A stretch of DNA of 39,555 nucleotides, taken from Sulfurovaceae bacterium. GTDB taxonomy: Bacteria; Campylobacterota; Campylobacteria; Campylobacterales; Sulfurovaceae. The stretch covers positions 1 through 39,555 of the forward strand of contig JADGER010000003.1 in NCBI GenBank assembly GCA_016744315.1. Direction: 5' to 3'. Below the pieces are notes generated by a model, which was not told where the DNA came from, ran no database searches, and saw only the letters and a list, made by a program, of their open reading frames with translations. Numbering within the stretch: the stretch's first letter is position 1; the number at the start of each line of letters is the position of its first letter. This document shows, piece after piece, positions 21,901 to 39,555 of this stretch. The position numbers and the translations under genes are program-made.

Positions 21901-24900
21901 TAAATAACATAAGCCAAGTCAGAAGCTTGATTAATGATGTTTAGGTTTTTTATAGGGGTATTACTACTCTTATAAGAATCTTCTTTGTTTGAATTACCTT
22001 CTACCTCAATAACATCAACCTTTAACTTATTGCTATATTCTTCTGCTTGTTGATAATTCACTTTATCACAAAGCAATAATCTTGCCTGAGAATCTTCTAA
22101 GATATAGTTAATTCTATCTTCAGGATACGCAGGGTCAATTGGAAGATAAGCTCCACCTGCTTTAAGTACTCCAAGAATAGCAATTATCATCCATTCACTT
22201 CTATCTAACATGATAGGGACTAAAGTATCAGCTTGAATCTTTTGGGTTGCTCTTAAATAGTGACCCAGCTGATTGGCTTTTTGGTTCAGCTCTTCATAAG
22301 TGAGTTCTCTCTCTTCATAAACCACAGCGATATTATTAGGAGTCTTCTTGACCTGTTCCTCAAAGAGTTCAATAATCGTCTTATCTTTTGGATACTCTTT
22401 TTGTGTTTGGTTAAAGCTTTCTAGTAAGGTTTGTTCTTCGTTTGAAATGATATTCAGTTCATTGAGTACCGTTGTGTTGCTTATATTCGCTATGAGCGTC
22501 TCTAAATTCAAGAAGAGTCGTTCTATGGTTGAAGCATTAAAGAGTGCTGTGTTGTACTCTATGTTTAACTCTATCTCTTCTTCTATCTCCATATAGTTAA
22601 AAGTCATATCAAACTTAGCACTTTTACTTTCAATAACTTTTATCTCTGTTTCGTTATTTGAGAAGTTAAGTTTATTTTGTTCAGTATTTTGTAAAATAAT
22701 CATCATATTAAACAAAGGGTTCTGACTGAGGTCTCTCTCTAAGTCCAGTTCATCTACCAATTTATCAAAAGGATAACTTTGATGTTCAAAGGCTTCTAAT
22801 GTCTTTTCTGTAATGCTTGAGAGATTCTCTTCAAAGCTTTTAGTGTTATCAAGCTTAGTTCTTAGTGCCAATGTATTGACATAGAATCCTATTTGGTCAA
22901 AGAGTTGTTCATGTCCTCTATTGGCTATTGGGGTTCCTAAGAGTATATCTTCTTGATTGCTGTATTTAGACAAAAGAATATTCGTAATAGTTAAGATTAC
23001 AGTAAAGAGCGTACTCTCTTTGCTAAAGCTTTTTAACTTTCTACTCTGTTCTGTATTCAGTTTAAAGTTAAGCTGACTTCCTTCAAATGTTTGGCTACTT
23101 GGTCTACTGTGGTCTAATGGGAACTCTAAGGTTTGATGTCCTTTAAGTGCTTCATGCCAATAGCTTTGGTGTTTCTCTACATAAGCTTCATTTTTTAAAA
23201 GATTGTTTTGCCAAGCTGTGTACTCTTTATAGTGAATACTTAATGGTTTTAGGTTGGGTTCCTCTTTATTATCTAAAGCTGTATAGAGTTCTGATAGCTC
23301 TTTAACGATAATGGCGATTGACCATCCATCAGAGATAATATGGTGCATATTCACAAAGAGAATATTCTTATTAATTACTTTTACAGTTATTAATGCATCT
23401 TTTTCTAAATCAAAGATATCGGTAGAAGCTTTAAGTAAGTAGACATCTACTTCATCTTTTTCAAGGGTTAGCTCTTCTATTACTACAGTATTTACTTCTT
23501 TACTTATAACCTGTCTGACTTCTCCTGCACGCTCTTTAAAGTTGGTTCTGAGTATCTCATGTCGATTAATTAACCTTTTTACACTCTCTTGTAGTACTTC
23601 ACTATTAAGGTTCTCTTTAAAGCTTAGTGCTTCTGGCATATTATAGACATTACTTCCATCTTGCATTTTATCCAGTACCCAAAGTCTTCTTTGGGCATTG
23701 GATATCTCATAACTTTCTTGTGGTTCTAATGGTAAAATCTCAATATGTTCTACTTTGCTTTTAGAAGCAATAAGTTTGGCTAAACCTTGAATGGAGTTAT
23801 AGAGAAATAGCTCTTTCAGTTTGATTTCTACTAAAAAAGCTTTAGATACTTTAGCAATGGTAGTGATGGCAGTTAAGCTGTGTCCTCCTATCTCAAAGAA
23901 GTTATCATCCATACTCACTTTATCTACTTTTAGTACTTCACAGAAGATAGATTCTAATTGTTTCTCTGTTTCATTGGAAGCTTCGATATAGACTTTACTG
24001 TTATCTGCCTCATTATGTTGTGGTAAGGCTTTCTTATCTATCTTTCCGTTTGAGGTGAGTGGTAAGCTTTCTAGTTCTATGAAGTAGCTTGGTATCATGT
24101 AAGAAGGTAATTTACTTTTTAGGTGGGCTTTTAGTCCTCCGATGATGTTTTTAGAATCGTCTGAATTTAAATTATTCTCTTCTACCACATAGGCTATCAA
24201 CAGTTGCTCTTTAGCTAGAACAACTGCTTCTGTTATACCCTTAAAGCTTAAAATAGAGTTTTCTATCTCACCCAACTCTATTCTGAATCCTCGTATTTTT
24301 ACTTGATCATCTACTCTTCCTAAATACTCGATATTTCCATCTTCTTGGTATTTGGCGAGATCTCCTGTTTTATAGATTCTTCCTAGTTTTGAATGCTTGA
24401 TGAAGACTTTTTCGGTGAGTTCTGGTTGGTTTAAATAACCTCTTGCTAGTCCATCTCCTGCTATGTAGAGTTCCCCACTAACTCCTAATGGCACTCTTTG
24501 GTTTTCTTGGTTTAAAATATAGAGCTTAGTATTATTAATCGCTTCCCCTATTGGTATAGTTTGATACTCTTTATTGGGGTTGACTTGATAGGTAGTTGCC
24601 GTTATGGAGCTTTCTGTTGGTCCGTAAGCATTAATATATCTCGCTGTTTTTGAATATTTAAGTGCATCTTCTACTTTAGCACTCTCCCCTCCTGTAATAA
24701 TTGTTTTTAAGTTTTCTATATTTTCAATTGAATTAAGTAAACTAGGTGGAATATCCACTATATTTATATTCTCTTTTTGTACCAAACCATTAATGTCTTT
24801 AAGCATTTTATCTTTAGATGCTGTGATTAAAGTCGCTCCAAAGAGTAATGTTATAAAGATTTCGGCTATAGAAGCATCAAACGCAAACGAAGCAAACTGT

Positions 24901-27900
24901 AAAACTTTACTTTCTTGACTCATATTAAGAATTTCAGCACCATAATAAATAATATTAATAGCACTTCTATTTTCGATTAAAACCCCTTTTGGTTTTCCTG
25001 TACTACCAGAAGTATAAATAACGTAAAATAGATTATTTGGTTTAGTAACAATCTCTAAATTTTTTACATTATTAGAGTATTGTAATTCTTGAACATCAAT
25101 TACCTCAATTCCTAAATCAAGACCATATTTTTTACCACTTTGGTTGTTTTCTTTATCAGTTAGTAAAAGATTAGCGCTTGAATCATTCAACATAAACGCT
25201 ACTCTCTCCTGTGGGTACTCAGGGTCAATCGGAAGATAGGCTCCTCCTGCTTTAAGCACTCCAAAAATAGTAATAATCATCCATTCACTTCTGCCCAGCA
25301 TAATCGGTATAATCGTATCGGCTTTGACATTGTGATTCTCTCTTAGAGAATGTCCTAACTGATTAGCTTTTTGATTGAGTTCATGATAGGTTAGTTTTGT
25401 ATTTTCATAGACAACGGCTATGTTATTTGGTGTCTTTTTGACTTGCTCCTCAAAAAGTTCAATAATGGTCTTATCTTTTGGATACGCTTTATCTGTCTGG
25501 TTAAAACTATCAAGAAGGTTAATCTCCTCTTGCGAAACAACATTCACTTTACTAAGTTGTTTATCACTTTGAATCTCTTCTAATATTTCAAAAAAGTAAC
25601 TAACAAACCTCTTAATCGTAGACGCTTTAAATATTTTATGATAATAATCAAAGTCACAAACAAGCTGATTTCCCTTATCAATAATATTGAGTGATAAATC
25701 AAAATCGGCTAAAGAACTGTTTATTGTATACTCTTCAAATCCAAGCTCTTCCAACACCCTAGCACTTCCATCTTCATACGCAAACATCACATCAAAGAGA
25801 GTATTTTTACTTGCATCTCTTTTTATTTTTAACTTTTCTATTAATTTTTCAAGTGGATACTCTTTGTGTTCAAGTGCTTCTAAAAAAGTTCTTTGAATTT
25901 CTTGAAGATATGTTTTAATGCTTATATTTTCCTCTAAAGTAACTCTCATCGCTATTGTATTGACAAACATTCCAACACTATTATGAAACTTCTCTCCTCG
26001 TGTATTGACAGGAACTCCTATCGTGATATCATCTTGTGAAGAGATTCTATTAAGTAGAATTGTAAAGGATGCAAAGAGTAGTGTATTTAAAGAAACATTA
26101 TAGTTTTTCGCTACACATTTGAGTTTTTGGGTTAAAGTTGTATCAATAGTAAAATACTCTTTTCCCCCCTCATAACTTCGAACCGATGGATAGGGACTAT
26201 CAATAGGTAGTGCTAAAGCTTCTGGTACAGTTTTAAATTGATTTAGCCAAAACTTCTCTTGTTTTGAAATATTCTGTTCTAAAATATCTTCATACTCTAA
26301 AGTAAAATCAAAGTAATCATGTAAAGTGCTCTCAATAGCTTGACCTAGGAAAAGTCGTTTAAAGTTTTCTGCAATAATATTAGCTGAAGTTCCATCAAAA
26401 ACAGTATGGTGTACTTTCATGGCAATGAAAAAATCATCTTCTTTTTTAAAAATAGCAACTTGAAAGAGTAGATCATTTTCTAAATCAAAAGGATTAAGTA
26501 CATAGTTAGTTATAATTGACTCTATTGCTTTGTTAGATTCTACCTCTACAACTTCTACTTCAAAATGGTTGTGATTTATTTTTTGACAAATCTCTCCATT
26601 TGTAACAAAAAGATTAATTTTTAAGGCTAAGTTAGCATCAAAGAGTTGCTTGAAAATGGTTTTGGTCTTTTGGATATCTAAGTTTTTTGTTTTCCAAATA
26701 GAGTAAGTGTTATAGAGGCTTTGATTTTCCTCAAGTTGACTAAGGGCGTAGAGTCTTTTTTGAAAAGAGGTGGCTTTTGGGGTTGAGTCCATTTTAGATA
26801 ATACAGAGGTGTTATCTTCTTTGTGTTTTCTTGGTAATTTATTGTCTTTTTGATTTGATTGATTATTGAGTAAATTGATAAGATGTGTTGTTAATTTATT
26901 GATATTGAAATGATCTAAAACAATAGTAGTTGATAAGGATGTTCCAAATTTAGTATTTAAACGATTGGTCAGTTGAATAAGCATCAAAGAGGTCATACCA
27001 ATATTGAAAAAATTTTGTTCATCATTTGGTAGAACACCTAGAAAGAGCTTGATTTCACTTTTGATAAAATCTTTGATGTTATCAACTTCAACAATATATT
27101 CCTTATTAAATCTCTTAATTCGTTCCTCTGCCTCTTTCTTTAGAACCCTCTTAAGAACTTTTCCCGTTTTACTTTTAGGCAAGTGTTCAACAAATTCAAC
27201 CTTGCTAGGTACTTTATAATCAGCTAAATTTTCTCTACAGAAAGTGATAATATCTGCTTCACTAACACTTTGATTTTCTTCTAAAATAATAGCTACTCTA
27301 ACTTCTTCACCCAATATGGGTTCAACTACTCCATAAGCAGATACCTCTTTGATATCAGGATGAGTATATAAAACTTGTTCTACTTCACTAGGATAGACAT
27401 TTTGCCCTCCAACATTTACCATATCTTTTTTTCTATCAACAATACTTAAGTATCCACTCTCATCTATCGTTCCAATATCACCACTGTGAAACCACCCCTC
27501 TTGAAGTGCTTCTTTAGTCTCTTTAGGAAGGTTCCAATAGCCAAGCATTATATTGGATCCTTTGATAGCTACTTCACCTTTTTGACCTTTGGGAAGCCCA
27601 TTTCCATGTTCATCAATAATCTTTATCTCGACTCCTCTAACTGCTTTTCCAACGCTCCCCTCTTTTTCTTCTATATTAGAGTTGTGACAAACCATTGAAC
27701 ATTCACTTAACCCATAATGTTCATGGATAGTAAGTTTAAATTTTTCTTGCCATCGATTAAAGATTTCTTGTGGTAAAGATGCACCTGCTGAAACAAATTC
27801 TCTTAAAGAGCTTAATTCAGTTGGTGTGGTATTTTCTAATAAAATATTATAGATGGTAGGTACACCAAAGAACAAGCTTACTTGATACTTTTGAATTGAA

Positions 27901-28619
27901 TATAGTACTTTTTTGATATTAAACTCTTTTTCTAAAATTAGCGTAGCTCCTGCTGATAGAGTAGAGTTTAATATTGCAATTTGTCCATAGTTATGAAAGA
28001 GAGGTAAAACGAGTATACTTTTATCATTTGTGCTTAAATTGATTTGATAAATAGTCTCTTCTATACTAAAGAGTATATTATTATGTGAAAGCGTTGCTCC
28101 TTTAGGAAAACCAGTCGTTCCTGAAGTGTAGAGAATCACTGCTGGGGTATTTATCTCTACATCTATACTTTTGAATAAAATAGAACTCTCTTTTATTATA
28201 TCACTCAGTACTTTATAGCTTTCCTGCTCTTCTTTTTTATCTATTACAATTATCTCTTCTAAATGAGGAAGTAGAGTCTTATCTATCTCTTGAGCTAAAG
28301 AAGAAGTTGTAATAATTATTTTAGCTTCACAATTGTTTAATATAAACCTTATCTCTTTAGATTTGAGAGTAGGATTTAGTGTAACTGCAATAGCTCCTGA
28401 CTTTAAAAGCCCAAAATAGGAAGTGATAAACTCTGGGGTGCTAGGAAGTAAGAGAGCCACTCTATCACCTATAGCAATATTAAATTGTTTTAATCCATTG
28501 ACTATTTGGTTACTGGTTTGATTGATGTCCTGATAACTAAAAGTTTCATTCTCAAAGATTAAAGCAGTTTTATTTGGCATTTCTTTGGCTATATTTTCTA
28601 AGTTTTGAGCAATATTCAT
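9939..28619 (-). CDS. Giant NRPS (6226 aa): AMP-ligase/ACP loading, five C-A-PCP modules, terminal epimerization domain
   Basis: One N-terminal fatty-acid/aryl-CoA-ligase-like domain, five further A domains with SGSTG and YGPTE, condensation HHxxxDG motifs, PCP GGHSL/GGDSI, C-terminal E domain. RBS AAGGACG before the ATG. Confidence 0.97.
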   Translation of the reverse strand: MNIAQNLENIAKEMPNKTALIFENETFSYQDINQTSNQIVNGLKQFNIAIGDRVALLLPSTPEFITSYFGLLKSGAIAVTLNPTLKSKEIRFILNNCEAKIIITTSSLAQEIDKTLLPHLEEIIVIDKKEEQESYKVLSDIIKESSILFKSIDVEINTPAVILYTSGTTGFPKGATLSHNNILFSIEETIYQINLSTNDKSILVLPLFHNYGQIAILNSTLSAGATLILEKEFNIKKVLYSIQKYQVSLFFGVPTIYNILLENTTPTELSSLREFVSAGASLPQEIFNRWQEKFKLTIHEHYGLSECSMVCHNSNIEEKEGSVGKAVRGVEIKIIDEHGNGLPKGQKGEVAIKGSNIMLGYWNLPKETKEALQEGWFHSGDIGTIDESGYLSIVDRKKDMVNVGGQNVYPSEVEQVLYTHPDIKEVSAYGVVEPILGEEVRVAIILEENQSVSEADIITFCRENLADYKVPSKVEFVEHLPKSKTGKVLKRVLKKEAEERIKRFNKEYIVEVDNIKDFIKSEIKLFLGVLPNDEQNFFNIGMTSLMLIQLTNRLNTKFGTSLSTTIVLDHFNINKLTTHLINLLNNQSNQKDNKLPRKHKEDNTSVLSKMDSTPKATSFQKRLYALSQLEENQSLYNTYSIWKTKNLDIQKTKTIFKQLFDANLALKINLFVTNGEICQKINHNHFEVEVVEVESNKAIESIITNYVLNPFDLENDLLFQVAIFKKEDDFFIAMKVHHTVFDGTSANIIAENFKRLFLGQAIESTLHDYFDFTLEYEDILEQNISKQEKFWLNQFKTVPEALALPIDSPYPSVRSYEGGKEYFTIDTTLTQKLKCVAKNYNVSLNTLLFASFTILLNRISSQDDITIGVPVNTRGEKFHNSVGMFVNTIAMRVTLEENISIKTYLQEIQRTFLEALEHKEYPLEKLIEKLKIKRDASKNTLFDVMFAYEDGSARVLEELGFEEYTINSSLADFDLSLNIIDKGNQLVCDFDYYHKIFKASTIKRFVSYFFEILEEIQSDKQLSKVNVVSQEEINLLDSFNQTDKAYPKDKTIIELFEEQVKKTPNNIAVVYENTKLTYHELNQKANQLGHSLRENHNVKADTIIPIMLGRSEWMIITIFGVLKAGGAYLPIDPEYPQERVAFMLNDSSANLLLTDKENNQSGKKYGLDLGIEVIDVQELQYSNNVKNLEIVTKPNNLFYVIYTSGSTGKPKGVLIENRSAINIIYYGAEILNMSQESKVLQFASFAFDASIAEIFITLLFGATLITASKDKMLKDINGLVQKENINIVDIPPSLLNSIENIENLKTIITGGESAKVEDALKYSKTARYINAYGPTESSITATTYQVNPNKEYQTIPIGEAINNTKLYILNQENQRVPLGVSGELYIAGDGLARGYLNQPELTEKVFIKHSKLGRIYKTGDLAKYQEDGNIEYLGRVDDQVKIRGFRIELGEIENSILSFKGITEAVVLAKEQLLIAYVVEENNLNSDDSKNIIGGLKAHLKSKLPSYMIPSYFIELESLPLTSNGKIDKKALPQHNEADNSKVYIEASNETEKQLESIFCEVLKVDKVSMDDNFFEIGGHSLTAITTIAKVSKAFLVEIKLKELFLYNSIQGLAKLIASKSKVEHIEILPLEPQESYEISNAQRRLWVLDKMQDGSNVYNMPEALSFKENLNSEVLQESVKRLINRHEILRTNFKERAGEVRQVISKEVNTVVIEELTLEKDEVDVYLLKASTDIFDLEKDALITVKVINKNILFVNMHHIISDGWSIAIIVKELSELYTALDNKEEPNLKPLSIHYKEYTAWQNNLLKNEAYVEKHQSYWHEALKGHQTLEFPLDHSRPSSQTFEGSQLNFKLNTEQSRKLKSFSKESTLFTVILTITNILLSKYSNQEDILLGTPIANRGHEQLFDQIGFYVNTLALRTKLDNTKSFEENLSSITEKTLEAFEHQSYPFDKLVDELDLERDLSQNPLFNMMIILQNTEQNKLNFSNNETEIKVIESKSAKFDMTFNYMEIEEEIELNIEYNTALFNASTIERLFLNLETLIANISNTTVLNELNIISNEEQTLLESFNQTQKEYPKDKTIIELFEEQVKKTPNNIAVVYEERELTYEELNQKANQLGHYLRATQKIQADTLVPIMLDRSEWMIIAILGVLKAGGAYLPIDPAYPEDRINYILEDSQARLLLCDKVNYQQAEEYSNKLKVDVIEVEGNSNKEDSYKSSNTPIKNLNIINQASDLAYVIYTSGSTGKPKGVMVEHSGIVNAVLNQIEVYGMNDTVRLLQFTTFTFDVSVSEILTTLFSGATLVTAKKEKVFNQFNTIIKDYNINMVNITPSFLQSIDDKIEGLNLLVTAGESATVTDAIKHAKDSRYINAYGPTETFYVSMYQVNPNKTYKTIPIGKPLANTKLYILDQDQTQLPLGAIGELYIAGEGLARGYLNKPELTEKVFITHPKLGRIYKTGDIAKYQKDGNIEYLGRVDDQVKIRGFRIELGEIENSILSFKGIKESVVLAKEQQLIAYVVKENALNTKSNIIEELKSHLKSKLPSYMIPSYFIELENLPLTPNGKIDKKALPSVNEADNHKVYIEASNEIEEQLAGIFGEVLKLDKVSMDDNFFEIGGHSLRAISTIANVSKAFSVEIKLKELFIYNSIQGLAKLIASKSKVEHIEILPLELQESYEISNAQRRLWVLDKMQDGSNVYNMPGSLRFKTNLTISVLQESVTRLINRHEILRTNFKESAGELRQVISAKVNKVVIEELSIQEDEVDAYLLQAATSIFDLEKDVLIDVKVINRNILFVNMHHIISDGWSITIIIKELSYLYTALDNKEEPKLNPLSIHYKEYTAWQNNLLKDEAYLKKHQIYWHEALKGHQTLEFPLDHSRPSSQTFEGNYLNFKLNQEQSRKLKSFTKESTLFTVILTITNILLSKYSNQEDILLGTPIANRGHEQLFDQIGFYVNTLALRTKLDNTKSFEENLLTITEKTLEAFEHQSYPFDKLVDELDLERDLSQNPLFNMMIVLQNNEQSELNFSNNQTEVQAIDTKSAKFDMTFNYTEIEEEIVLEIEYNTALFNATTIERLFLNLEMLIANINNTTILNELNIISNEEQTLLKSFNETQKEYPKDKTIIELFEEQVRKSPNNIAVVYEERELTYQELNQRANSLAHYLIELGISTDDLVGVNVNRSLEMIISILGVLKSGGAYIPIDSSYPEDRVEYMIQDSKAKVVLTNKALKEKLTTLTNTTTIISIEEFNDEHIHYPIINPKVSVKKSNLMYVLYTSGSTGTPKGVMVEHHTFINLLQWYSETFNINESNKTLLIISFAFDASTKNLLAPLVHGGELILSDGQYYNPEHIIDLIDKHQITLINSVPSAFKPILNLLENKQNGYQALSSLKDIAFAGESLDINFFKRFLEVSNINIFNTYGPTEATDVTHYKQIDRVKQDISIGKSIPNTKAYILNQTQTQLPLGARGELYIAGDGLARGYLNQPELTNKVFINHPTLGRIYKTGDIAKYQEDGNIEYLGRVDDQVKIRGFRIELGEIENSILSFKGIKEAVVLAKEQQLIAYVVEGTDLSNDDSKNIIEALKAHLKSKLPSYMIPSYFIELESLPLTPNGKIDKKALPSVNEADNHKVYIEASNETEKKLESIFCEVLKVDKVSMDDNFFEVGGHSLTAITTIAKVSKTFSVEIKLKELFIYNSIQGLAKLIASKTKVEHIAILPLEPQKSYEVSNAQRRLWVLDKMQDGSNVYNMPEALRFKENLNMEVLQESVTRLINRHEILRTNFKERAGEVRQVISKEVNEDIIEVLELKEDEVNDYLLKSATAIFDLEKDALLSLKVINGNILFVNMHHIVSDGWSIAIIVKELSELYTALDNKEEPKLKPLTIHYKEYTAWQNNLLKNEAYLEKHQSYWHEALKGHQTLEFPLDHSRPSSQSFEGSHLNFKLNTEQSRKLKSYTKNSTLFTVILTITNILLSKYSNQEDILLGTPIANRGHEQLFDQIGLYVNTLALRTKLDNTKSFEENLSSITEKTLEAFEHQSYPFDKLVDELDLERDLSQNPLFNMMIVLQNNEQSELNFSNNQTELQVIDTKSAKFDMTFNYMEIEEEIVLNIEYNTALFNASTIERLFLNLETLVENISNTTVLNELNIISNQEQTLLQSFNQTQKEYPKDKTIIELFEEQVKKTPNNIAVVYEKRELTYEELNQKANQLGHYLRVTQNIQADTLVPIMVDRSEWMIIAILGVLKSGGAYLPIDPEYPEDRISYMLNDSKAKILLSDMKNRNKADTYSQTLNIQSVDVEALDYSTKGSLDDTNLEIINSSSDLAYVIYTSGSTGKPKGVMLTQSNVTSFTANMKKKFNIKERETIYAITTIAFDISVLELISSLLTNLTVVIASSNNLEENIKEIENNPIDIIQTTPTRYNALMDLNPQALKKVNKLLIGGEKLNKEVLSKLQTLDCELYNVYGPTEATVWSTVKRVDIGELNIGQPLCNEMAYILDQNQQELPLGAIGELYIAGDGLARGYLNKPELTKKVFINHPTLGRIYKTGDIAKYQEDGNIEYLGRVDDQVKIRGFRIELGEIENSILSFKGIKEAVVLAKEQQLIAYVVKGTDLSNDDSKNIIEALKVNLKSKLPSYMIPSYFIELESLPLTPNGKIDKKALPSVNEVDNHKVYIEASNETEKKLESIFCEVLKVDKVSMDDNFFEVGGHSLTAITTIAKVSKAFSVEIKLKELFIYNSIQGLAKLIASKTKVEHIAILPLEPQESYEVSNAQRRLWVLDKMQDGSNVYNMPEALRFKENLNIEVLQESVTRLINRHEILRTNFKERAGEVRQVISKEVNEDIIEVLELKEDEVNDYLLKSATAIFDLEKDALLSLKVINGNILFVNMHHIVSDGWSIAIIVKELSELYTALDNKEEPKLKPLTIHYKEYTAWQNNLLKNEAYLEKHQSYWHEALKGHQTLEFPLDHSRPSSQSFEGSHLNFKLNTEQSRKLKSYTKNSTLFTVILTITNILLSKYSNQEDILLGTPIANRGHEQLFDQIGLYINTLALRTKLDNTKSFEENLSSITEKTLEAFEHQSYPFDKLVDELDLERDLSQNPIFNMMIVLQNNEQNELNFSNNQTELQVIDTKSAKFDMTFNYMEIEEEIVLNIEYNTALFKASTIERLFLNLETLVENISNRTVLNELNIISNEEQTLLQSFNQTQKEYPKDKTIIELFEEQVKKTPNNIAVVYEKRELTYEELNQKANQLGHYLRVTQNIQADTLVPIMVDRSEWMIIAILGVLKSGGAYLPIDPEYPEDRISYMLEDSQARLLLCDTTNYAKTISELDTLNLNIIDIETFGKENNALDTNLESINSASNLAYVIYTSGSTGKPKGVMLTHSNLSSFTFWGLNEFKDTSFDLMYFATSYCFDISLFEIFFTLAKSKTIKVLKSGIDILNHLHKDKNIFINTVPSVVKLLLEEKANLSNVTTLNMAGEPIAKNIIDSLIDKEIDIRNLYGPTEATIYATSYQFKDTSKVLIGKSLSNNSIYILDQHQMQLPLGAIGELYIAGDSLARGYLNKPELTEQVFINHPNLGRIYKTGDIVKYQEDGNIEYLGRVDDQVKIRGFRIELGEIENSILSFKGIKEAVVLAKEQQLIAYVVEDTDLSNNDSENIIEALKAHLKSKLPSYMIPSYFIELESLPLTPNGKIDKKALPEVNQEESGKTYIEPKNENETIVIEAFLEVLTIKKISTEDNFFEIGGDSIKAIQITSKIASKGYKLDIKSIFKASSIKELATYLEKSTRVIAQISVEGAIELNPIQQWFFENSTPKNHFNQSVFFKMKESISEEILNIVIKKLQIHHDILRVNYPKNKKGEFNQINHAVDFPIDVEVVKLKSLESIEAQTDTFQASFNIEESSLMKVVLFKTEQEEDRLLIILHHLIVDGVSWRILLEDFNNAYNDYKNGLDIQLPLKTDSFKSYTVALNSYVKTIPIQLAYWQEVTNHELIVPCDNEVVIRLGKNRKSSNFTLSKEETRNLLEESNFAYNTQINDLLLTALSLALYRSFSMKEVLITLEGHGREEVLDVDLSRTIGWFTTAYPVKLAYHQEQTLEHQIKHMKESLRSIPDKGLGYGVLKYISKEALSYTPQISFNYLGEFDNSLNTELFEMARESAGASEGEDFTSEYKLDMNAIITDNQFSMSIAYDEFEFNEERIEQLTHYLKASLVEVVEHCQRKESTELTPSDIDADNLDIEALNNFLEIINKGI
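9950..11330 (-). other. Epimerization domain at the C-terminus of the first NRPS
   Basis: HHLIVDGVSWRIL, EGHGREE, TIGWFTTAYPVKL and SFNYLGEFD are E-domain signatures. The preceding carrier is GGDSIKAIQ, typical of a PCP before an E domain. Confidence 0.9.
26900..28619 (-). other. Loading module: acyl/aryl-CoA ligase-like adenylation domain plus ACP
   Basis: ILYTSGTTGFPKGATLSHNN, LPLFHNYGQIAILNSTLSAGATLIL, HEHYGLSECSMV, GWFHSGDIG...DRKKDMVNVGGQNVYPSEVE, then an ACP with GMTSL. Unlike the downstream amino-acid A domains. Confidence 0.85.
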
Positions 28620-28635: not shown

Positions 28636-29241
28636 TTATATGTACTGGTTAATTGGAAATTTTTCATGGATGAGCATAATAGGTTTTTTATCCATAATGA
28701 TTTGATATGTGCGACAAAAGAATTGCTCTTTTATTAAATCTGGGTGTTTGATATTTGAGCCATCACACAAGTTATAACTTAAAATTTTACGACGACTTTC
28801 AATATCGTTACTAAGTAGAACTTTACCGATTCCACTGCCCTCTTCATTCAACATTTCGTTGATCTCTTTCGAAAATCTATTTGGTACTAAAAGAGAGCTA
28901 GCATAGGCGTAAATGGTTTGCGTTTCACTTCCTTGAAGTAAAACCGAACGAACGGTTACATTGGTTTCATCAGAAATCTCAAGCCAACTATGGTCATCTA
29001 AGCATAGATTTTTTTCCTGTTGGAGTACCACAATATTAATAGGCTCTAAACTATATGCTTCAATCGCTTTCGTCACAGTACCATCTATTGTCAATAAAAC
29101 TCTTTGAAAAGGCGTTAAACTATGCATATCTATTTCTTGGCTGGAAAGCAGTTTTGTATCTGAAGGAAACAGGTCAGAAAATTCGTTAAAATCAATATAA
29201 TTTGGATTGCTCTCATTGCATATCACTGATAGAGTTGGCAT
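28636..29241 (-). CDS. Chorismate pyruvate-lyase family (DUF98-like) protein, probable 4-hydroxybenzoate producer
   Basis: LTPFQRVLLTIDGTVTKAIEAYSLEPINIVVLQQ, VRSVLLQG, YAYASSLLVPNRF, GIGKVL, FCRTYQIIMDKKPIMLIHEKFP match the DUF98/chorismate lyase pattern as remembered. The 235-aa ORF extends to 29343, but ATG at 29241 has a strong GGAG RBS. Confidence 0.7.
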   Translation of the reverse strand: MPTLSVICNESNPNYIDFNEFSDLFPSDTKLLSSQEIDMHSLTPFQRVLLTIDGTVTKAIEAYSLEPINIVVLQQEKNLCLDDHSWLEISDETNVTVRSVLLQGSETQTIYAYASSLLVPNRFSKEINEMLNEEGSGIGKVLLSNDIESRRKILSYNLCDGSNIKHPDLIKEQFFCRTYQIIMDKKPIMLIHEKFPINQYI

Positions 29242-29467
29242 ACTCTTCTCCTTTGTATGTTTAATAAAATATAAAAGTTTAAATCGTAATATAAAATAAC
29301 ATTCTAAATAGAGAAAAAATTGTGGCAAGAACACTAGACTCAAGATAAACTATGTACTTGACTTTCTCAGTTTTTCATAAGAGGAAATATACAAATATAA
29401 AATAATATTTTGAAATTCTATCATAAAAATTAGCTAAATCCGATAAGAGTCACATGGTAAGTTAAGC

Positions 29468-30852: not shown

Positions 30853-30882
30853 AAAATCTAATCACGCGTGTGATTAGATTTT
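30853..30882. repeat. Palindrome aaaatctaatcac-gcgt-gtgattagatttt overlapping the parA 3' end
   Basis: 13-bp perfect arms around a 4-nt centre, followed by a T run on the + strand. Candidate parS-like site and/or terminator. Confidence 0.75.
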
Positions 30883-31985
30883 TTCTGCTCCAATATTAAC
30901 TTTATTGCATACTTTAACATTGGCTCAAATAGACTCAATGATTCTTTCACTTTTACCTTATAATCAATAATAGATTGTTGCACTGATTGTGAAGAACGAA
31001 TGATTGATGGTGAATATTTGACAATAAAAAGAGAATTTTCATCAAGGTTTAACTTATCAAGAAGAATATCTACAATATCATCAAGAGCATCATTGGCATA
31101 GTTATGATGTTTAGAAAAAGCATTTACAAATATACCATCTATCTCTATTTTTTTACTAAGGTTTTTATTGAGTTCATTAATCTCTTGAATAGTCACCTCT
31201 AAGCCCTCCACAGAAAACTCATCAGCTTCAGAAACCAATAGCACTTTATCCGATGCAAAAAGACTCATCTCCAAAGATAAACCAGAGTAGGGTGGTGTAT
31301 CGATAATGATATAGTCATAATCTTCTTTTATATAGTTAAGAATTTTATCCAAGATAGTATCTGGTCTATTGCTCATTCGCATAAGCTCTAACATCTTTGC
31401 TAATTTTATCTCTGATGGCAAGATATCCAAACTATAACTTTCATTCTCAAAATTAGAAAAAGTAACTATTTTATCTTTGATATAGGATTTCTCTATATCA
31501 TTATTGAGTTTAAATTGTTCAAATATAGATAGTATTGAACGGTTTTTATAAGATACTTTTTTGAAATACCTACTACTTTGAGCTTGTGAATCCATATCTA
31601 CAATCAAGACTTTTTGACCCAACTTTGCCAAAGCTACAGCGATATTGATAGTATTAGTTGTCTTTCCTACACCACCTTTTTGATTGGTTACTGTAATCAC
31701 TTGACAACGATGTGATGCAAAAGATTTAAGTATCTCTTTATTTAGCTCTTTTTGTAAAAAAGCCTCTTTATAGCTAATATTATCATCCAAACTATATTTA
31801 TTGATGATATTTCTATAAGCATAATCAATTAATAGCTCTGTTGTATAGTACCTTTTCCTATGCTCTCCTCCTGTAGTCACACATGGGATAATCTGACTAT
31901 TGAGAAGTATCTTAACCTTTTTTTCATTAACATTAACAAATGAAGCTATTTCATTAGATGAGTTAAATATTCTTGCATCATACAT
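30858..31985 (-). CDS. parA: ParA-family partition ATPase with N-terminal helix-turn-helix domain
   Basis: Deviant Walker A QKGGVGKTTNTINIA, DMDSQAQSS, DYIIIDTPPYSG. The N-terminus IASFVNVNEKKVKILLNSQIIP...GEHRKRYYT looks like a MerR-type HTH. Confidence 0.93.
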   Translation of the reverse strand: MYDARIFNSSNEIASFVNVNEKKVKILLNSQIIPCVTTGGEHRKRYYTTELLIDYAYRNIINKYSLDDNISYKEAFLQKELNKEILKSFASHRCQVITVTNQKGGVGKTTNTINIAVALAKLGQKVLIVDMDSQAQSSRYFKKVSYKNRSILSIFEQFKLNNDIEKSYIKDKIVTFSNFENESYSLDILPSEIKLAKMLELMRMSNRPDTILDKILNYIKEDYDYIIIDTPPYSGLSLEMSLFASDKVLLVSEADEFSVEGLEVTIQEINELNKNLSKKIEIDGIFVNAFSKHHNYANDALDDIVDILLDKLNLDENSLFIVKYSPSIIRSSQSVQQSIIDYKVKVKESLSLFEPMLKYAIKLILEQKKSNHTRD

Positions 31986-32338: not shown

Positions 32339-32893
32339 ATGATTATAAAAGATGAAAAAAGTGACGAAACTGTGGGTATTGAAAGTGAATCAGCTTCAAT
32401 AGAAAATGAAGAAATTGTGGATACTAAAAAGAGAGGTTTAGAGGCTTCTGCGATTATTAAAAATCACATGATGGCTTCGATGGGCTTTGGGGCTGTTCCT
32501 ATTCCTGTGGTGGATTTGATTGGTTTAACGGGAACTCAATTGAACATGCTTCGTAAATTATCTGCCCTTTATGGTCATACTTTTTCTGAAGAGTTAGCTA
32601 AAAAAGCGATTGCTTCTCTATTGGGTGCTGGATTAACTTTACCTATTGCTATGGGTCTGTCAAGTTTGGTTAAGATGATTCCTCTTATGGGTCAAACGGC
32701 TGGTATTGTCTCTTTGGTTACTACTGGGGCTGCTTCTACTTATGCCATTGGTAAAGTTTTTGTAAAACATTTTGAATCAGGTGGAGACTTCTTATCCTTC
32801 TCTTCTAAAAAATCTAAAAAAGAGTTTGAAGAAGAACTTGACAAAGGTAAAAATGAAGCTGCTAATTTAGATAAAAATAGTAAAGTAGCGTAA
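32339..32893 (+). CDS. DUF697/YcjF-like membrane-associated protein, copy 1
   Basis: GFGAVPIPVVDLIGLTGTQLNMLRKLSALYGHTFSEELAKKAIASLLGAGLTLPIAMG resembles the DUF697 'PIPGxD...Q..mi..la.lYG' pattern. Confidence 0.65.
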   Translation: MIIKDEKSDETVGIESESASIENEEIVDTKKRGLEASAIIKNHMMASMGFGAVPIPVVDLIGLTGTQLNMLRKLSALYGHTFSEELAKKAIASLLGAGLTLPIAMGLSSLVKMIPLMGQTAGIVSLVTTGAASTYAIGKVFVKHFESGGDFLSFSSKKSKKEFEEELDKGKNEAANLDKNSKVA

Positions 32894-32947
32894 CTTATAT
32901 AACTAAAGCTACGCACTTTAAAATAGCTAACCCTTTAAAACGATATA

Positions 32948-32993
32948 AAAATATAGCATATTTAGGGGTTAGCACCAAAATATGCTATATTTT
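32948..32993. terminator. Strong stem-loop (16-bp perfect stem, 14-nt loop) between the two DUF697-like genes
   Basis: aaaatatagcatattt (32948-32963) pairs with aaatatgctatatttt (32978-32993). Confidence 0.55.
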
Positions 32994-33207
32994 CGATGAT
33001 AAACTCTCAAAAATTAGAGAACTTTTGAATTGAAATAGAGAAAAAACTCCTCCCCAAATAATCAAACTTCACCCAAGCAGATCTATCTCATAACCTGAGT
33101 TAGAGAAAAAACTCCTTTCTTTACTAAAGAAGAATAGAAAAGTGGCAATGAATGAAGAAGATAAAAATAATGGAAAATATGTTAATATTGCAAATAAAGG
33201 AAACAAT

Positions 33208-33753
33208 ATGAAAAAAGAGACTGAAAGTGATACAACTGTGAAAGCTGAAAGTAAAGAAACTTCAACTAAGAATGAAGAAGTAATTGATGCAAAAAAAAGA
33301 GAAGCAGAGGCTTCTTCTATTATTAAGACTCATATGATGGTTTCTATTGGATTTGGGGCTGTTCCTATTCCTGTAGTGGATTTGATTGGTCTAACGGGAA
33401 CTCAATTGAACATGCTCCGTAAATTATCTGCCCTTTATGGTCATACTTTTTCTGAAGAGTTGGCTAAAAAAGCGATTGCTTCTCTATTGGGTGCTGGATT
33501 AACCTTACCTATTGCAATGGGTCTATCAAGTTTAGTCAAAATGGTTCCAATAATTGGTCAAACAGCGGGTATTGTCTCTTTAGCCACTACGGGTGCTGCT
33601 TCTACTTATGCTATGGGTAGAGTTTTTATTAAACATTTTGAATCTGGTGGTGATTTCTTAAGCTTCTCTTCTAAAAAAGCCAAAGATGAATTTGAGGAAG
33701 AACTTCAAAATGGTAAAAATGAAGCTGCTGATTTAAATACTAAAGTTGCTTAG
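33208..33753 (+). CDS. DUF697/YcjF-like membrane-associated protein, copy 2
   Basis: Near-identical core to copy 1. The listed ORF opens at 33142, but ATG at 33208 (MKKETES...) has an AAAGGA RBS and aligns better with copy 1. Confidence 0.65.
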   Translation: MKKETESDTTVKAESKETSTKNEEVIDAKKREAEASSIIKTHMMVSIGFGAVPIPVVDLIGLTGTQLNMLRKLSALYGHTFSEELAKKAIASLLGAGLTLPIAMGLSSLVKMVPIIGQTAGIVSLATTGAASTYAMGRVFIKHFESGGDFLSFSSKKAKDEFEEELQNGKNEAADLNTKVA

Positions 33754-35393
33754 TGTTTGATGATTTAAAAGACTTTTTAAAAAGAGAAGGTGACTTCTCT
33801 TTTTGGCAAAATGTCATTTTTATGGGAGTAGTCACAGGAATTGCTAATGCTGGACTTTTAGCTGTTGTTAATAGTGCAGCTAAAGCCGTTGAGAATAATG
33901 GGTTAAACTATAGACTTTTTGCTATTTATATTGTAATTTTTTCAATTCTTTATTTGAGTAAACGATACTCTTTAATTAATGCTTCTCAAGAAGTAGAAAG
34001 AATAATAAAGAATGTTCGAGAGAGAATATCTAAAAAAGTTATACAGAGTGAACTTGTGACTATGGAAAAAATAGACTCTTCATCTATTTTTACACGACTT
34101 ACTAAAGATACATCAGTGATGTCACAATCTTCTTTTCAAATAACTAGTGCTGCTCAGAACATAATTATGCTCTTCTTTGCACTGATTTATATTGTAATTC
34201 TCTCTCCAGTCTCATTTTTTGTTATTCTTTTTGCTACGATTGTTATCGTGAGTATGTTTTTTTCTTTTACTAAAATAATGGATGAAGAGTTAACTAAAAT
34301 AGATAAGATTGAGGAAGGATTTATTAGTTCATTGAGTTCCATTGTGCATGGATTTAAAGAGTTAAAGATGAATTCAAAAAAAAGAGAAGACATCAACGAT
34401 GAACATAATATTCTTTTAACCCAATTTACTGATGCTAAAATTAAAAATAGTGCTCGGATAGTAACCGCTATTCTATATGGAGATATATTTGTATATACTT
34501 TATTAGGTTCTATAGTTTTTGTAGTGCCTCATCTAATCTACCAAGATAGTTCTACTGTTATTCAAGTAACAGCTATCACACTTTTTATTGTTGGACCATT
34601 TGAGGCAGTAATCAATGTAACTCCCCTAGTATCTAGAATTAATGTAGCCATTAATAATATGTATGACTTGGAGAGAAGTATAGATAGAGAAAGTAAAAAA
34701 ACTGTTATACTCGATAAGGATCTTGAGGTTATTGAGAACTTTAAGAACATTCAGCTTAAAAATGCAGAGTTTTATTATACAGATGAAGAGGGAAGTAAAC
34801 TCTTTGGAGTAGGACCCATTAATCTGAATATTAAACAAGGAGAGACCATTTTTATTGTGGGAGGAAATGGTAGTGGAAAATCTACCATTGTCAAAATGTT
34901 ATTGGGACTCTATTCTCCTAAACAAGGATCTATTTTTGTTAACAATGAGTTAATTGATGAATATAATCAACAATCATACAGAGATTTTTTTGCTATCATT
35001 TTAACAGATTTTCATCTTTTTGATAGATTCTATGGTTTAAAAGGGGTAGATAGAAAAGCTGTTAATAGATTGTTGATTGAGATGCAACTGCAAGAGAAAA
35101 CTAAATTTATAAATGGTAAATTTACCAATATTAAGCTGTCTACTGGTCAGAAAAAAAGAGTGGCTCTTATTTTATCAATTTTAGAAGATAAAGAAATTTA
35201 TGTTTTTGATGAATGGGCAGCTGATCAAGATCCTGAATTTAGAAAATATTTTTATACGAAAATATTGAAAAGATTAAAAGAGAATGGAAAAACAGTTATT
35301 GCTGTAACGCATGATGATGCTTACTTTGATGTAGCAGACAGAGTATTTAAAATGGATTATGGTAAAATGCTTCCATATAAAAAGGAAAATTAG
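33753..35393 (+). CDS. ABC transporter, TM domain fused to ATPase, resembling cyclic-peptide exporters (SyrD/PvdE type)
   Basis: Six-TM-like N-terminal half, Walker A GGNGSGKST, signature LSTGQKKR, Walker B IYVFDEWAADQDPEFR (the DEWAADQDP form is characteristic of the SyrD/PvdE-like exporter group). Confidence 0.85.
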   Translation: MFDDLKDFLKREGDFSFWQNVIFMGVVTGIANAGLLAVVNSAAKAVENNGLNYRLFAIYIVIFSILYLSKRYSLINASQEVERIIKNVRERISKKVIQSELVTMEKIDSSSIFTRLTKDTSVMSQSSFQITSAAQNIIMLFFALIYIVILSPVSFFVILFATIVIVSMFFSFTKIMDEELTKIDKIEEGFISSLSSIVHGFKELKMNSKKREDINDEHNILLTQFTDAKIKNSARIVTAILYGDIFVYTLLGSIVFVVPHLIYQDSSTVIQVTAITLFIVGPFEAVINVTPLVSRINVAINNMYDLERSIDRESKKTVILDKDLEVIENFKNIQLKNAEFYYTDEEGSKLFGVGPINLNIKQGETIFIVGGNGSGKSTIVKMLLGLYSPKQGSIFVNNELIDEYNQQSYRDFFAIILTDFHLFDRFYGLKGVDRKAVNRLLIEMQLQEKTKFINGKFTNIKLSTGQKKRVALILSILEDKEIYVFDEWAADQDPEFRKYFYTKILKRLKENGKTVIAVTHDDAYFDVADRVFKMDYGKMLPYKKEN

Positions 35394-35394
35394 A

Positions 35395-36240
35395 ATGAGA
35401 TGGACATACCCTTTTTTATTATTATTAATAATGTTATTAGCACTTTTGGTTTTTTGGAAAAATATTGTAGTAACTATTAATGCAGGGGAAGGTGGAGTAT
35501 TATTTAAACGATGGGGTGGAACTGTAGTTGATAAAACTTATGAAGAAGGTCTTTACACCATTTTTCCTTGGGATATTTTAACCCCTTATAATTTAAGAGC
35601 GCAGCAAGAGAAACATGAGTTTGATGTTTTATCAAAGCAAGGCTTAACAATTCATTTGAAAATATCGATTCGTTTTCATCCAGATAAAGAGATGATAGGA
35701 ATATTGCATAAAAATATTGGTCCAGAATATTTAGAGTCAGTTGTTATTCCAGAGATAGAATCTGTAATTAGACGCTACTTTGGACAATTTAATGATGATG
35801 AACTCTATACCTCTAAAAAAGCTATCTTAGAGACTATATTAAATGATTCAACCAAACAGCTATCGGATAAGTTTATTATTTTAGAAGATCTTATTATCAG
35901 AAAGATGGAGTTTCCTTCAGCAATACAAGAGTCAATTCAAAACAAAATAACACAGTATCATAAATTTAAAGCGTATGAGTATAAAGTAGAACGAGAGCGA
36001 TTAGAGGCTAAAAGAAAAATAATAGAAGCAGAAGGTATTAGTCAATATAAAAATTTAATTTCTAAAAATATTACTCAAGAGTATTTACAGTGGGCAGGAA
36101 TTCAAGCTACCTTAGAACTTGCTAAATCTAACAATGCTAAAGTTGTGGTAATAGGCTCTTCAAAAGATGGCTTGCCGATTATTTTGAACAGTGATAGTCA
36201 GAGTGTTCCTTTAAAAAATAAAAATGAGAAGAGTCAATAG
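35395..36240 (+). CDS. SPFH/prohibitin (band 7)-like membrane protein
   Basis: N-terminal TM, then INAGEGGVLFKRWGGTVVDKTYEEGLYTIFPWD, RFHPDKEMIGILHKNIGPEYLESVVIPEIESVIRRYFGQF, and an A/E-rich C-terminal helix. ATG at 35395 directly follows the ABC transporter stop. Confidence 0.85.
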   Translation: MRWTYPFLLLLIMLLALLVFWKNIVVTINAGEGGVLFKRWGGTVVDKTYEEGLYTIFPWDILTPYNLRAQQEKHEFDVLSKQGLTIHLKISIRFHPDKEMIGILHKNIGPEYLESVVIPEIESVIRRYFGQFNDDELYTSKKAILETILNDSTKQLSDKFIILEDLIIRKMEFPSAIQESIQNKITQYHKFKAYEYKVERERLEAKRKIIEAEGISQYKNLISKNITQEYLQWAGIQATLELAKSNNAKVVVIGSSKDGLPIILNSDSQSVPLKNKNEKSQ

Positions 36241-36246
36241 TTAATA

Positions 36247-37467
36247 ATGGAAGAAAATACAAGAAAACAGAATCATTACTTCAGGAATACTTTTCTTTTT
36301 ATACCGTTCGTTCTGCTTGCACTTTTTATAAGTGATAGATTCCTTTTACAATCAGTAGATATGACTTTATTAAAAAAACAACGAAGTGAGTATCTTAGTA
36401 ATTTAGACAAAGACTCTCCTATTGAAATTGGTGTTGTTTGGCCTCTCTTTTTAGAAGAGGGAGATAATTATTTTAAAGAAGGTGTTCTATTTGCACTCAA
36501 AACCTTAAATAAAGATAAACTTTTAGGTAGAAAAATAGAAGCTATTTTCAGAGATGATGAAGGGGAAATAGAGAAGGCTAAAGTAATTGCCAGTGAGTTT
36601 GCAACGAATAAGAATATTGTGGCTGTCATTGCCCATGATGACATAACTTTAGCTATTCCTGCATCTATTACTTATGAATACAGTGGTATTATAATGATTT
36701 CTCCAGCTGTCTCTTCTCCTAACTTTACAAAAATTAACTTTGATTATATTTTCAGAAATACTCCTTCTGATATTATAATTGGTCAAGAGTTAGCAGTTAT
36801 GGCTAAGCGTTTAAATTTTAAAAAGATTGCAGTTGTTAATTCAAGAGAAACCTATGCTGAATCATTAAGTGAAGTTTTTATAGCACAATCCTTAAAAAGT
36901 AATTTAGATGTCATTTATAATAAGAAGTATAATAAAGGAGAAGCTGAGTTTTTAAAGATATTAAATACTTTATCTCCTCGTAGTAATTATTCCATCGATT
37001 ATGATGCAATATTTGTAGCAGGAAATGCAAAAGATGTTTCTCGGTTAATTAGTAAAGCCAGAGAAAAAGGTATTTATGCACCTTTTATAACAGGAGACTT
37101 ATTGGACTCTCCAGAACTCTTAAAGATTGGTAAAGATGCAGAGAATACTATTGTTGCAACTATCTATAACTCAGAACTAATTAGTGAAGAGCTACAAGAC
37201 TTTAAAATTAAATTTAAAAAAGAGTATAACATTCTTCCAGATACTTGGGCTATTCAAGGGTATGATGCAATGATGCTTTTAGCTGAAGCTATTAAAAATG
37301 CTCAATCATTAAATCCATCTCTAATTGCGAGTCAACTTAAATATATGAATAACTTTAAGAGTATTACAGGAACATACTCTTTAACCCCAAAGGGAGACAC
37401 CTTAAATAAAAAAGTCTATTTTAAAGTTGTTAAAAATAAAAAATTTGAATATATAAATATTGAATAA
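36247..37467 (+). CDS. Peripla_BP_6-type (branched-chain amino acid/amide) substrate-binding protein with N-terminal anchor
   Basis: EIGVVWPLFLEEGDNYFKEGVLFALKTLNKDKLLGRKIEAIFRDDEGEIEKAKVIASEF...IMISPAVSSPNFT...FRNTPSD...WAIQGYDAMMLLAEAI. Confidence 0.85.
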   Translation: MEENTRKQNHYFRNTFLFIPFVLLALFISDRFLLQSVDMTLLKKQRSEYLSNLDKDSPIEIGVVWPLFLEEGDNYFKEGVLFALKTLNKDKLLGRKIEAIFRDDEGEIEKAKVIASEFATNKNIVAVIAHDDITLAIPASITYEYSGIIMISPAVSSPNFTKINFDYIFRNTPSDIIIGQELAVMAKRLNFKKIAVVNSRETYAESLSEVFIAQSLKSNLDVIYNKKYNKGEAEFLKILNTLSPRSNYSIDYDAIFVAGNAKDVSRLISKAREKGIYAPFITGDLLDSPELLKIGKDAENTIVATIYNSELISEELQDFKIKFKKEYNILPDTWAIQGYDAMMLLAEAIKNAQSLNPSLIASQLKYMNNFKSITGTYSLTPKGDTLNKKVYFKVVKNKKFEYINIE

Positions 37468-37476
37468 GGAATCTTT

Positions 37477-39555
37477 ATGCTAAAAAAATTACTATTATTT
37501 TCTCTCTTTTCTTTCTCTCTTTTTGCAACAGAAGTGACTCTCTATTCTGAATGTGATGATGAACCTTACTCTTATTGTGAAGAGAATGAAGTAAAAGGGA
37601 TTAATGTAGCAATATATAAAGCTATTTTTTCAAAAATTACTGAATACTCTTTAAATATAAAAGGAATTTCATGGAGTGATGGACTTGAAAAGATGAAGAG
37701 TAAAAAGATAAAAACATTAGGTTCTATGGTCTACAGTCCCAAAAAGCGACCTTTTGTTACAGAATATACTAACCCTTTTATTCACAAAAACCAAGCTTTA
37801 TTTTGTTACGAAACACCTAATCATCCAAAAATAAAATGGCCCGAAGATTTCTATAATTTAAAAATAGCAACGATTAAAGGCTTCTCAAAAGATAAAAAAT
37901 TAACTGAGGCTGTAGCACAAGCTCTAATTCAAGATTTTGAATCAAATTCAACTCAAGGATTAACGAATTTAATTGAAAAAAAAGTAGATTGTTATATAGC
38001 AGATGAAATAGCCACTAAAGGAAAATTAGCTCAATATATTTATAAGAATAGAAAGAATAATGATTCCTTAAAAGTATTAAAAAGTATTAAAAAAATAGTT
38101 TCATTTAAAGGCTCAGGACGACATATTGGTTTTTCAGCTGCACCTTTTTTATTAAAAACAGATTTAATAAAAAAGATTAATATTGCCATTAAAATAATGG
38201 GAAACTCTAAAGAGATAGAAAATATTGTAAATCAAACTTTAGATAGTTATCTTAATCCTCAAAAAAAACAAGTTATTAGAGCATCAATCTATAATTGGGG
38301 AGATTATGTCTCTGACAGAATCCCTTCTTATGGTCTAATAGCTGAAATGGTAGAAAAATCTTTTGAAAATCAAAATATTGAAATTAAATATAATTTTGTA
38401 CAATCAAACTATGCTTCCTTACTAGCAAAGTGGGGTAGAAGTTGTGTTACTCTACCTTGGGTAGAAACAGAAGAGAACGCTCAATATTTTTATTTTTCTA
38501 AATCAATTAAACCTTCTAGTACATATCTATTCTATAAAAAATCTTCGTTTCCAAATGGATTAAAATATAATAAGTTCTCAGATTTAAAAGAGTATAGAAT
38601 AGGTGGAATTAATGGATATTTTTATGAAAAAAAGTTTGAAGATGCTAATTATAATTATACTTCTTTTAAAAATCTAAAAGAAGCTATTCAGGCACTTATA
38701 TTTAATGAGATTGATATTATTCCCTCATCTAAAGATATTTTTCTTAGTGATATTAAAAAGTTCTTTCCTAATGAGAGAGAACTCTTGTCTTTTCATAAAA
38801 AAAGCTTTGTTGATATAAGTATAAGAGCTCTTTTCTCTAAACGATGTGATAATTCAGAATCATTAAGGGATTCCTTTAATCTAGGTCTTGAGAATATTAA
38901 AAAAGATGGAACATTTAAAAGTATATTAGATAAATATAGTATGAACCTAGAAGAATTCTATGGCTTTATGGGAGATGAAGTTGATTCAGATAATGATGGT
39001 GTCTTTAATGAATATGATGAGTGTCCCTATACAAAAGAGGGTGTAAAAGTTGATAAGACTGGCTGTAACCTTATTGAGCCTTATACTATGGATATACTTT
39101 ATACTAAAAATAAATTGGATTTCAAAGGTTATATTCCATCTAAAAAAGAATACAAAGATTTTATCTCAAAAATAAAGAATTTATATCCTAATTTAAATAT
39201 TATTGAAGAGCTAAAAATTGAAAATGGGAAAATTAAAAACTGGACAAAATTCATAGAATATATAATAAGCCCATTAAACAAGTTAGAGACAGCATCTTTA
39301 AAAGTTGTGGATAAGAATGTTACATTACTAGGAACAGTCAAAAGTACTGAAGGTAAAGAACTTACGATAGATATTAGTGAGACTTTATCAACTATAGAGG
39401 CTCAAAGTTGGGCAGAGTTTATAAATAATATAATAAGCCCATTAAATAAGCTAGAGACAGCATCTTTAAAAGTTGTGGATAAGAATGTTACATTACTAGG
39501 AACAGTCAAGAATACTGAAGGTAAAGAACTTAAGATAGATATTAGTGAGACTTTA
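37477..39555 (+). CDS. Partial secreted/periplasmic protein: two SBP_bac_3-like domains, TSP3-type linker, tandem repeat domains; runs off the window
   Basis: ATG at 37477 after AAGGA; signal peptide MLKKLLLFSLFSFSLFA; open to 39555 with no stop seen, absent from the supplied ORF list because it is incomplete. TSP3 motif DSDNDGVFNEYDECPYTKEGVKVDKTGC. Confidence 0.85.
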   Translation, partial: MLKKLLLFSLFSFSLFATEVTLYSECDDEPYSYCEENEVKGINVAIYKAIFSKITEYSLNIKGISWSDGLEKMKSKKIKTLGSMVYSPKKRPFVTEYTNPFIHKNQALFCYETPNHPKIKWPEDFYNLKIATIKGFSKDKKLTEAVAQALIQDFESNSTQGLTNLIEKKVDCYIADEIATKGKLAQYIYKNRKNNDSLKVLKSIKKIVSFKGSGRHIGFSAAPFLLKTDLIKKINIAIKIMGNSKEIENIVNQTLDSYLNPQKKQVIRASIYNWGDYVSDRIPSYGLIAEMVEKSFENQNIEIKYNFVQSNYASLLAKWGRSCVTLPWVETEENAQYFYFSKSIKPSSTYLFYKKSSFPNGLKYNKFSDLKEYRIGGINGYFYEKKFEDANYNYTSFKNLKEAIQALIFNEIDIIPSSKDIFLSDIKKFFPNERELLSFHKKSFVDISIRALFSKRCDNSESLRDSFNLGLENIKKDGTFKSILDKYSMNLEEFYGFMGDEVDSDNDGVFNEYDECPYTKEGVKVDKTGCNLIEPYTMDILYTKNKLDFKGYIPSKKEYKDFISKIKNLYPNLNIIEELKIENGKIKNWTKFIEYIISPLNKLETASLKVVDKNVTLLGTVKSTEGKELTIDISETLSTIEAQSWAEFINNIISPLNKLETASLKVVDKNVTLLGTVKNTEGKELKIDISETL
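39263..39555 (+). repeat. Tandem coding repeat, 168-bp (56-aa) period, continuing past the window
   Basis: taataagcccattaaa...agagacagcatctttaaaagttgtggataagaatgttacattactaggaacagtcaa starts at 39263 and again at 39431 with few differences. Confidence 0.9.

Follow-up and report, generated by a model that had tools for sequence, protein, structure and literature searches.

A probable export and periplasmic-handling module with prohibitin-like, DUF697 and binding proteins in a nonribosomal peptide synthetase cluster of a Sulfurovaceae bacterium

Does an operon that encodes a peptide-type ABC exporter, an SPFH protein, two DUF697 proteins and two binding proteins serve the nonribosomal peptide synthetase (NRPS) encoded on the same piece of DNA? 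The question is raised by contig JADGER010000003.1 of a Sulfurovaceae bacterium (assembly GCA_016744315.1), of which the first 39,555 of 57,699 bases were analysed and are here called the window. A preliminary description, made from the letters alone, had proposed an undescribed export or sensing operon with a hypothetical link to the NRPS, and had suggested that gene neighbourhoods and co-occurrence in other genomes be examined. This was done, and the results support the link. We consider it probable that the operon provides transport for the adjacent NRPS cluster, as a dedicated export and periplasmic-handling module for its peptide. The genes concerned, including those that follow the window on the contig, are:

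32339..32893, + strand: DUF697 protein a, 184 aa; PF05128, 38.9 bits (cut-off 27.7); 79% identity to copy b
33208..33753, + strand: DUF697 protein b, 181 aa; PF05128, 41.4 bits (cut-off 27.7)
33753..35393, + strand: ABC exporter, TIGR01194 cyclic peptide exporter family, 546 aa; 343.7 bits (cut-off 286.2)
35359..36240, + strand: SPFH/prohibitin-like protein, 293 aa, N-terminal membrane anchor; Band_7 PF01145, 70.4 bits (cut-off 23.6)
36247..37467, + strand: Peripla_BP_6 (BP6) protein, 406 aa, uncleaved-looking N-terminal anchor; PF13458, 108.7 bits (cut-off 31.7)
37477..39555, + strand: protein with SBP_bac_3 (twice), TSP3 and tandem repeats, running into the scaffold gap; PF00497, 55.9 bits (cut-off 26.4), two stretches
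ending at contig position 40840, + strand, past the window: OmpA domain, C-terminus of the sixth gene; PF00691, 66.8 bits (L045)
contig 40867-41043, + strand, past the window: membrane microprotein, 58 aa; profile from neighbour clustering
contig 41045-41731, + strand, past the window: type II thioesterase (TEII); PF00975 (L045)
contig 41731-42348, + strand, past the window: phosphopantetheinyl transferase (PPTase); PF01648 (L045)

All six genes between 32339 and 39555 were found co-oriented on the + strand with the assignments given earlier, each of which passes the curated Pfam or NCBIfam cut-off. The tight packing of the last five was confirmed as well, with gaps of 0-9 bp or overlaps from 33208 on. 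DUF697 protein b could also start at an in-frame GTG at 33142, but an AAAGGA ribosome-binding site precedes the ATG at 33208. Directly after the window, at 39556, lies a scaffold gap written as N. The sixth gene contains 168-bp tandem repeats (94% match; window 38900-39555 and L045 2357-3057), which may vary in number and are the likely cause of the gap. Past it, the TEII gene starts 1 bp after the microprotein gene and overlaps the PPTase gene. We infer that the genes before and after the gap are continuous; in genome G021 the order ABC-SPFH-BP6-microprotein-TEII-PPTase runs unbroken. Because the microprotein, TEII and PPTase genes follow on the same strand, the exporter operon is physically part of the NRPS cluster: in the window contig and in G021 alike, exporter, SPFH and BP6 share an operon with the NRPS accessory genes TEII and PPTase.

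To place the SPFH protein, genome contigs were scanned with a 6-sequence alignment (10 diverse sequences were too variable), which yielded 80 loci from many phyla. A tree of 93 SPFH proteins, calculated by a quick method and uncertain in its deeper branching, puts the window protein in a clade of 54 members (SH-aLRT 99). The loci were mostly under 25 kb, many of them truncated by contig ends. Near the clade SPFH we found DUF697 in 38/54, BP6 in 35/54 and the exporter in 28/54 loci, and NRPS or polyketide synthase (PKS) genes in 24/54 by strict profiles or 33/54 with weaker tblastn matches and record annotation. None of the 36 loci outside the clade, nearly all from Bacteroidota, contained DUF697, BP6, exporter or NRPS/PKS genes; the generic Bacteroidota SPFH proteins were rejected as module members for lack of DUF697, BP6, exporter or microprotein alongside. 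Plasmid searches with SPFH and with DUF697 shared most of their hits, which were Azospirillum, Skermanella and Tistrella records in which a TIGR01194-type exporter, SPFH and DUF697 occur together, mostly adjoining NRPS genes. The SPFH query also retrieved Rhodobacteraceae SC52, where an exporter-SPFH-DUF697 trio lies downstream of apparent synthase genes that include a PPTase.

As near-copies (9 from Chlorobiota, 4 from Pseudoalteromonas) inflate the locus counts, whole-genome tests were added. Strong matches to the clade SPFH were obtained in 4 of 250 genomes of the window's order, all among the 8 that have condensation (C) domains (Fisher p 4e-7; 1e-5 without the window genome). In Chlorobiales, 15 of 99 genomes have the clade SPFH (over 400 bits), all of them among the 25 with C domains, and in 14 of the 15 it lies in cis, within about 4 kb of the NRPS (p 1.5e-11 for the association, uncorrected for shared ancestry). 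Seventeen Chlorobiales genomes have generic SPFH paralogues (174-198 bits); none of these genomes has C domains, and the paralogues were not accepted as module members for this reason. The TIGR01194 exporter was detected in 34/38 clade genomes, and in Chlorobiales it is confined to the same 15 genomes plus one with a fragmented NRPS. In the window's order, 17 genomes of one family (of 21 with a TIGR01194-type exporter) have neither clade SPFH nor C domains, and SPFH thus goes with the combination of NRPS and exporter and not with an exporter by itself. The suspected NRPS link is borne out by these data: the gene order recurs elsewhere, two independent lineages each show co-occurrence of the SPFH clade with NRPS/PKS, and most loci have the two in cis.

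Clustering of the neighbouring genes revealed a further component, a two-helix membrane protein of 54-90 aa with the motif GxNRKxGFWGYFFxSLxLTPxxG, for which neither Pfam nor NCBIfam has a model. Its profile matches 42/54 clade loci and 0/36 loci outside the clade. Across the order (250 genomes), its strong matches, with E below 1e-23, are found in exactly the four genomes with clade SPFH, the next best match being at 2e-5.

A comparison with described clusters shows how much of this is new. In the barnesin cluster of Sulfurospirillum barnesii, brnE is the NRPS, brnF the PKS and brnI the PPTase, and brnBCD are labelled 'cyclic peptide transporter' (PMC13096860). Locus G204 has the order DUF697, ABC, SPFH, BP6, NRPS (C-A-T-C-A-T), PKS (KS-DH-KR-ACP-TE), DUF697, microprotein, PPTase and then an SBP_bac_3 gene. 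Its nine genes from DUF697 through PPTase fit brnA-I, and by gene order G204 would be the barnesin cluster, with exporter, SPFH and BP6 as the probable brnB-D. The window and its contig extension share with G204 the run ABC-SPFH-BP6 beside an NRPS, together with DUF697, microprotein and PPTase (40% identity for SPFH, 39% for the exporter). The window with its extension differs from the barnesin cluster in having a TEII and an SBP-OmpA protein and in its apparent location on a plasmid. The main text of the barnesin paper names the transporter only and does not discuss the nature of SPFH, BP6, DUF697 or microprotein (PMC13096860). In Thalassobaculum OXR-137, an exporter and a prohibitin adjoin NRPS/PKS genes as in the window; this was a passing observation, and neither a module nor its distribution was described (PMC12016528). 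The earlier word 'undescribed' therefore no longer covers the transporter label and the exporter/prohibitin pair; it still holds for module composition, spread and microprotein, which we did not find in the open-licence papers searched. A search of these papers for links of DUF697 or SPFH with nonribosomal synthesis returned none. The exporter is already known, and its prohibitin, DUF697, BP6 and microprotein partners appear to be undescribed as a module.

The individual proteins were then considered. The exporter scores 343.7 against the TIGR01194 threshold of 286.2 over residues 22-539 and so belongs by sequence to this cyclic peptide exporter family, in keeping with the resemblance noted earlier. 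This family includes SyrD, PvdE and YojI; SPFH, DUF697, BP6 and microprotein partners lie outside its definition. PADLOC reported no defence system, only ATPase-domain matches on the exporter. The SPFH protein is a member of the SPFH/prohibitin family by its Band_7 domain and prohibitin-like fold: its best sequence match in the PDB is human PHB2 (E 3.6e-19), and its predicted monomer model is closest to human PHB1/2 (E 7.8e-19). Its N-terminal anchor is preceded by positive charges (positive-inside), and the SPFH domain is therefore predicted to be periplasmic. In these respects it resembles the proteins of the prohibitin PHB1/2 and HflK/C cages, which have an AAA protease as partner; the putative partner of the window SPFH is a peptide exporter. 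DUF697 protein b is predicted to be helical (pLDDT 79.8), and the model matched none of the solved structures.

BP6 relatives carry an N-terminal anchor or a lipobox, several of them being lipoproteins, and in two sulfur bacteria BP6 is fused to TSP3 and OmpA domains. The envelope-type repeats noted on the second binding protein of the window correspond to a TSP3 stretch and the 168-bp tandem repeats, and the protein ends in an OmpA domain. The binding proteins had been described as lacking a permease, and this now extends to the genome for one type: a LivH/LivM-type permease (PF02653) is absent from the window genome (95.6% complete; 12/14 control genomes positive), and a polar amino-acid permease for SBP_bac_3 was not searched for. 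By the lack of PF02653 permeases the operon does not qualify as a Liv-type branched-chain amino-acid importer. Anchor or lipobox, TSP3-OmpA fusions and the missing LivHM permease fit product capture at the periplasmic face of the exporter and tethering to peptidoglycan better than import.

Further BP6 architectures were seen. Module BP6 proteins extended by TSP3 repeats and OmpA, or by a peptide-binding domain of the SBP_bac_5 type, are encoded in L062 (10767-13028), L063 (1453-4110) and L076 (4315-7059). In L076 (7063-9321), and also in L041, L058 and L080, the BP6 domain is followed by a C-terminal part that contains several hydrophobic segments and a YPFDCQ motif reminiscent of pentameric ligand-gated channels; no channel family was matched in Pfam.

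The NRPS genes themselves lie upstream on the other strand:

9939..28619, - strand: NRPS 1, 6226 aa, with an acyl/aryl-CoA-ligase-type loading A domain
3044..9937, - strand: NRPS 2, 2297 aa, C-A-T-C-A-T-TE
28636..29343, - strand: Rv2949c-like chorismate lyase; PF01947, 56.4 bits

The chorismate-lyase-like gene (28636-29343) beside the loading A domain (27119-28619) suggests that the peptide may carry a 4-hydroxybenzoate or other acyl cap, the lyase being a possible supplier of the 4-hydroxybenzoate starter. A MobA/VirD2-like relaxase, a Rep3 initiator, ParB and ParA are encoded at 86-2897 and 29738-31985, and the NRPS cluster appears to be on a mobilisable plasmid. A plasmid-borne NRPS cluster is unusual in this order, where only 8/250 genomes have C domains. 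Downstream of the PPTase (L045 5105-7902) there are a methyltransferase and a NodU/TobZ-type carbamoyltransferase, both possible tailoring enzymes, and after them a type I restriction-modification set.

Under the transport reading, the exporter would carry the completed peptide, with its acyl or aryl cap, over the inner membrane. The SPFH protein of prohibitin type would be held in the inner membrane by its anchor, the ring-forming part facing the periplasm, and would enclose the exporter outlet, and DUF697 and the microprotein would join this enclosure from within the membrane. The anchored BP6 and the SBP-OmpA protein would capture the product and keep it off the membrane until maturation or release through the outer membrane. 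Gene content, operon order, clade-wide co-occurrence with NRPS and exporter, the missing LivHM permease and the predicted SPFH fold are the results behind this reading; we infer that the product is the cargo, that the periplasm is the side of action, that a cage surrounds the exporter and that labour is divided in this way. The wider idea that such a cage with DUF697 and microprotein round an exporter serves several phyla as a conserved compartment for exporting or holding non-ribosomal peptides is put forward as tentative. Several observations weigh against the transport reading. The positive-inside topology rule is true for only 38/52 clade members. The exporter is found within about 10 kb in only 28/54 clade loci, and the alphaproteobacterial and Pseudoalteromonas branch is mostly without BP6. 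Of 36 clade genomes searched, 4 have no C domains (4 of the 32 reached through loci), and two of these 4 also lack the exporter. Barnesin A was made in E. coli from brnE, brnF and brnI alone (PMC13096860); the other cluster genes are thus not needed for assembly, which speaks for the transport reading, but it also follows that the module is not strictly required for a product to appear. Finally, the papers searched yielded no experiments on SPFH, DUF697, BP6 or microprotein of the module type.

The dispensability of the module for synthesis in E. coli would also suit a role in self-protection, with SPFH, DUF697 and microprotein as a shielding or repair device against a membrane-active product and the exporter as the sole true transporter. 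Links to membrane stress are common for SPFH and small membrane proteins, and genomes with generic SPFH paralogues but no NRPS lack the set. We regard this as rather unlikely, as it explains neither the anchored binding proteins and OmpA tethering nor the near one-to-one tracking of SPFH and exporter in Chlorobiales. A sensing function, in which the binding proteins without permease recognise the product or amino acids and pass a signal through the SPFH assembly to control production, could draw on the BP6 protein without LivHM permease in the genome, on BP6 relatives fused to or adjoining other binding proteins, and on signalling genes in some loci. It is improbable in our opinion, since the conserved neighbours are exporter, TEII and PPTase and do not include any kinase, regulator or chemoreceptor.

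An interaction between SPFH and NRPS has been suggested in passing for Thalassobaculum (PMC12016528), so that SPFH might gather the megasynthase at the membrane as a scaffold. The close linkage to NRPS genes and the ability of SPFH proteins to organise membrane domains agree with this. However, the SPFH domain is predicted to be on the periplasmic side and barnesin was assembled in E. coli without the module genes, which makes a scaffold very improbable. The parAB genes sit between the NRPS genes and the exporter operon, and plasmids can gather unrelated genes; still, a chance neighbourhood with no tie to the NRPS is hardly credible in view of the co-operonic TEII and PPTase, the co-occurrence in two independent lineages and the SPFH/exporter tracking in Chlorobiales.

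Some loci of the clade deserve separate mention. In Pseudoalteromonas (L092 5358-6725, L105 5564-6967) a beta-lactamase-family lipoprotein is encoded between NRPS and DUF697-ABC-SPFH; it is a candidate prodrug-cleaving peptidase and, by analogy with other prodrug peptides, would fit post-export maturation. We suspected that these loci are the alterochromide cluster but do not claim it, as the published alt genes comprise a permease and an ATPase that are encoded separately (altE/altF) and the halogenase altN. On Tistrella pTM3 the module neighbours an assembly line in which about 11 C and 2 KS domains were counted. These counts fit the didemnin cluster (11 NRPS and 2 PKS modules), but a DidK-like CAAX motif was not found nearby and identity is not claimed. 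In G004 (L047 5846-10975) the module adjoins not an NRPS but a PLP decarboxylase, two radical SAM-like genes, an SDR and an FGE-sulfatase-type gene, and the NRPS genes sit on other contigs of that genome. L055 encodes an SPFH 85% identical to that of the window in a metagenome-assembled genome labelled Flavobacteriaceae BB24, probably on a mis-binned contig.

How large or membrane-active non-ribosomal peptides pass the Gram-negative envelope without self-harm is poorly known. The conserved module marks NRPS clusters, gives DUF697 and a bacterial prohibitin subfamily a testable role, and adds an overlooked microprotein. It can also be used in genome mining as a marker for exporter-linked NRPS/PKS clusters.

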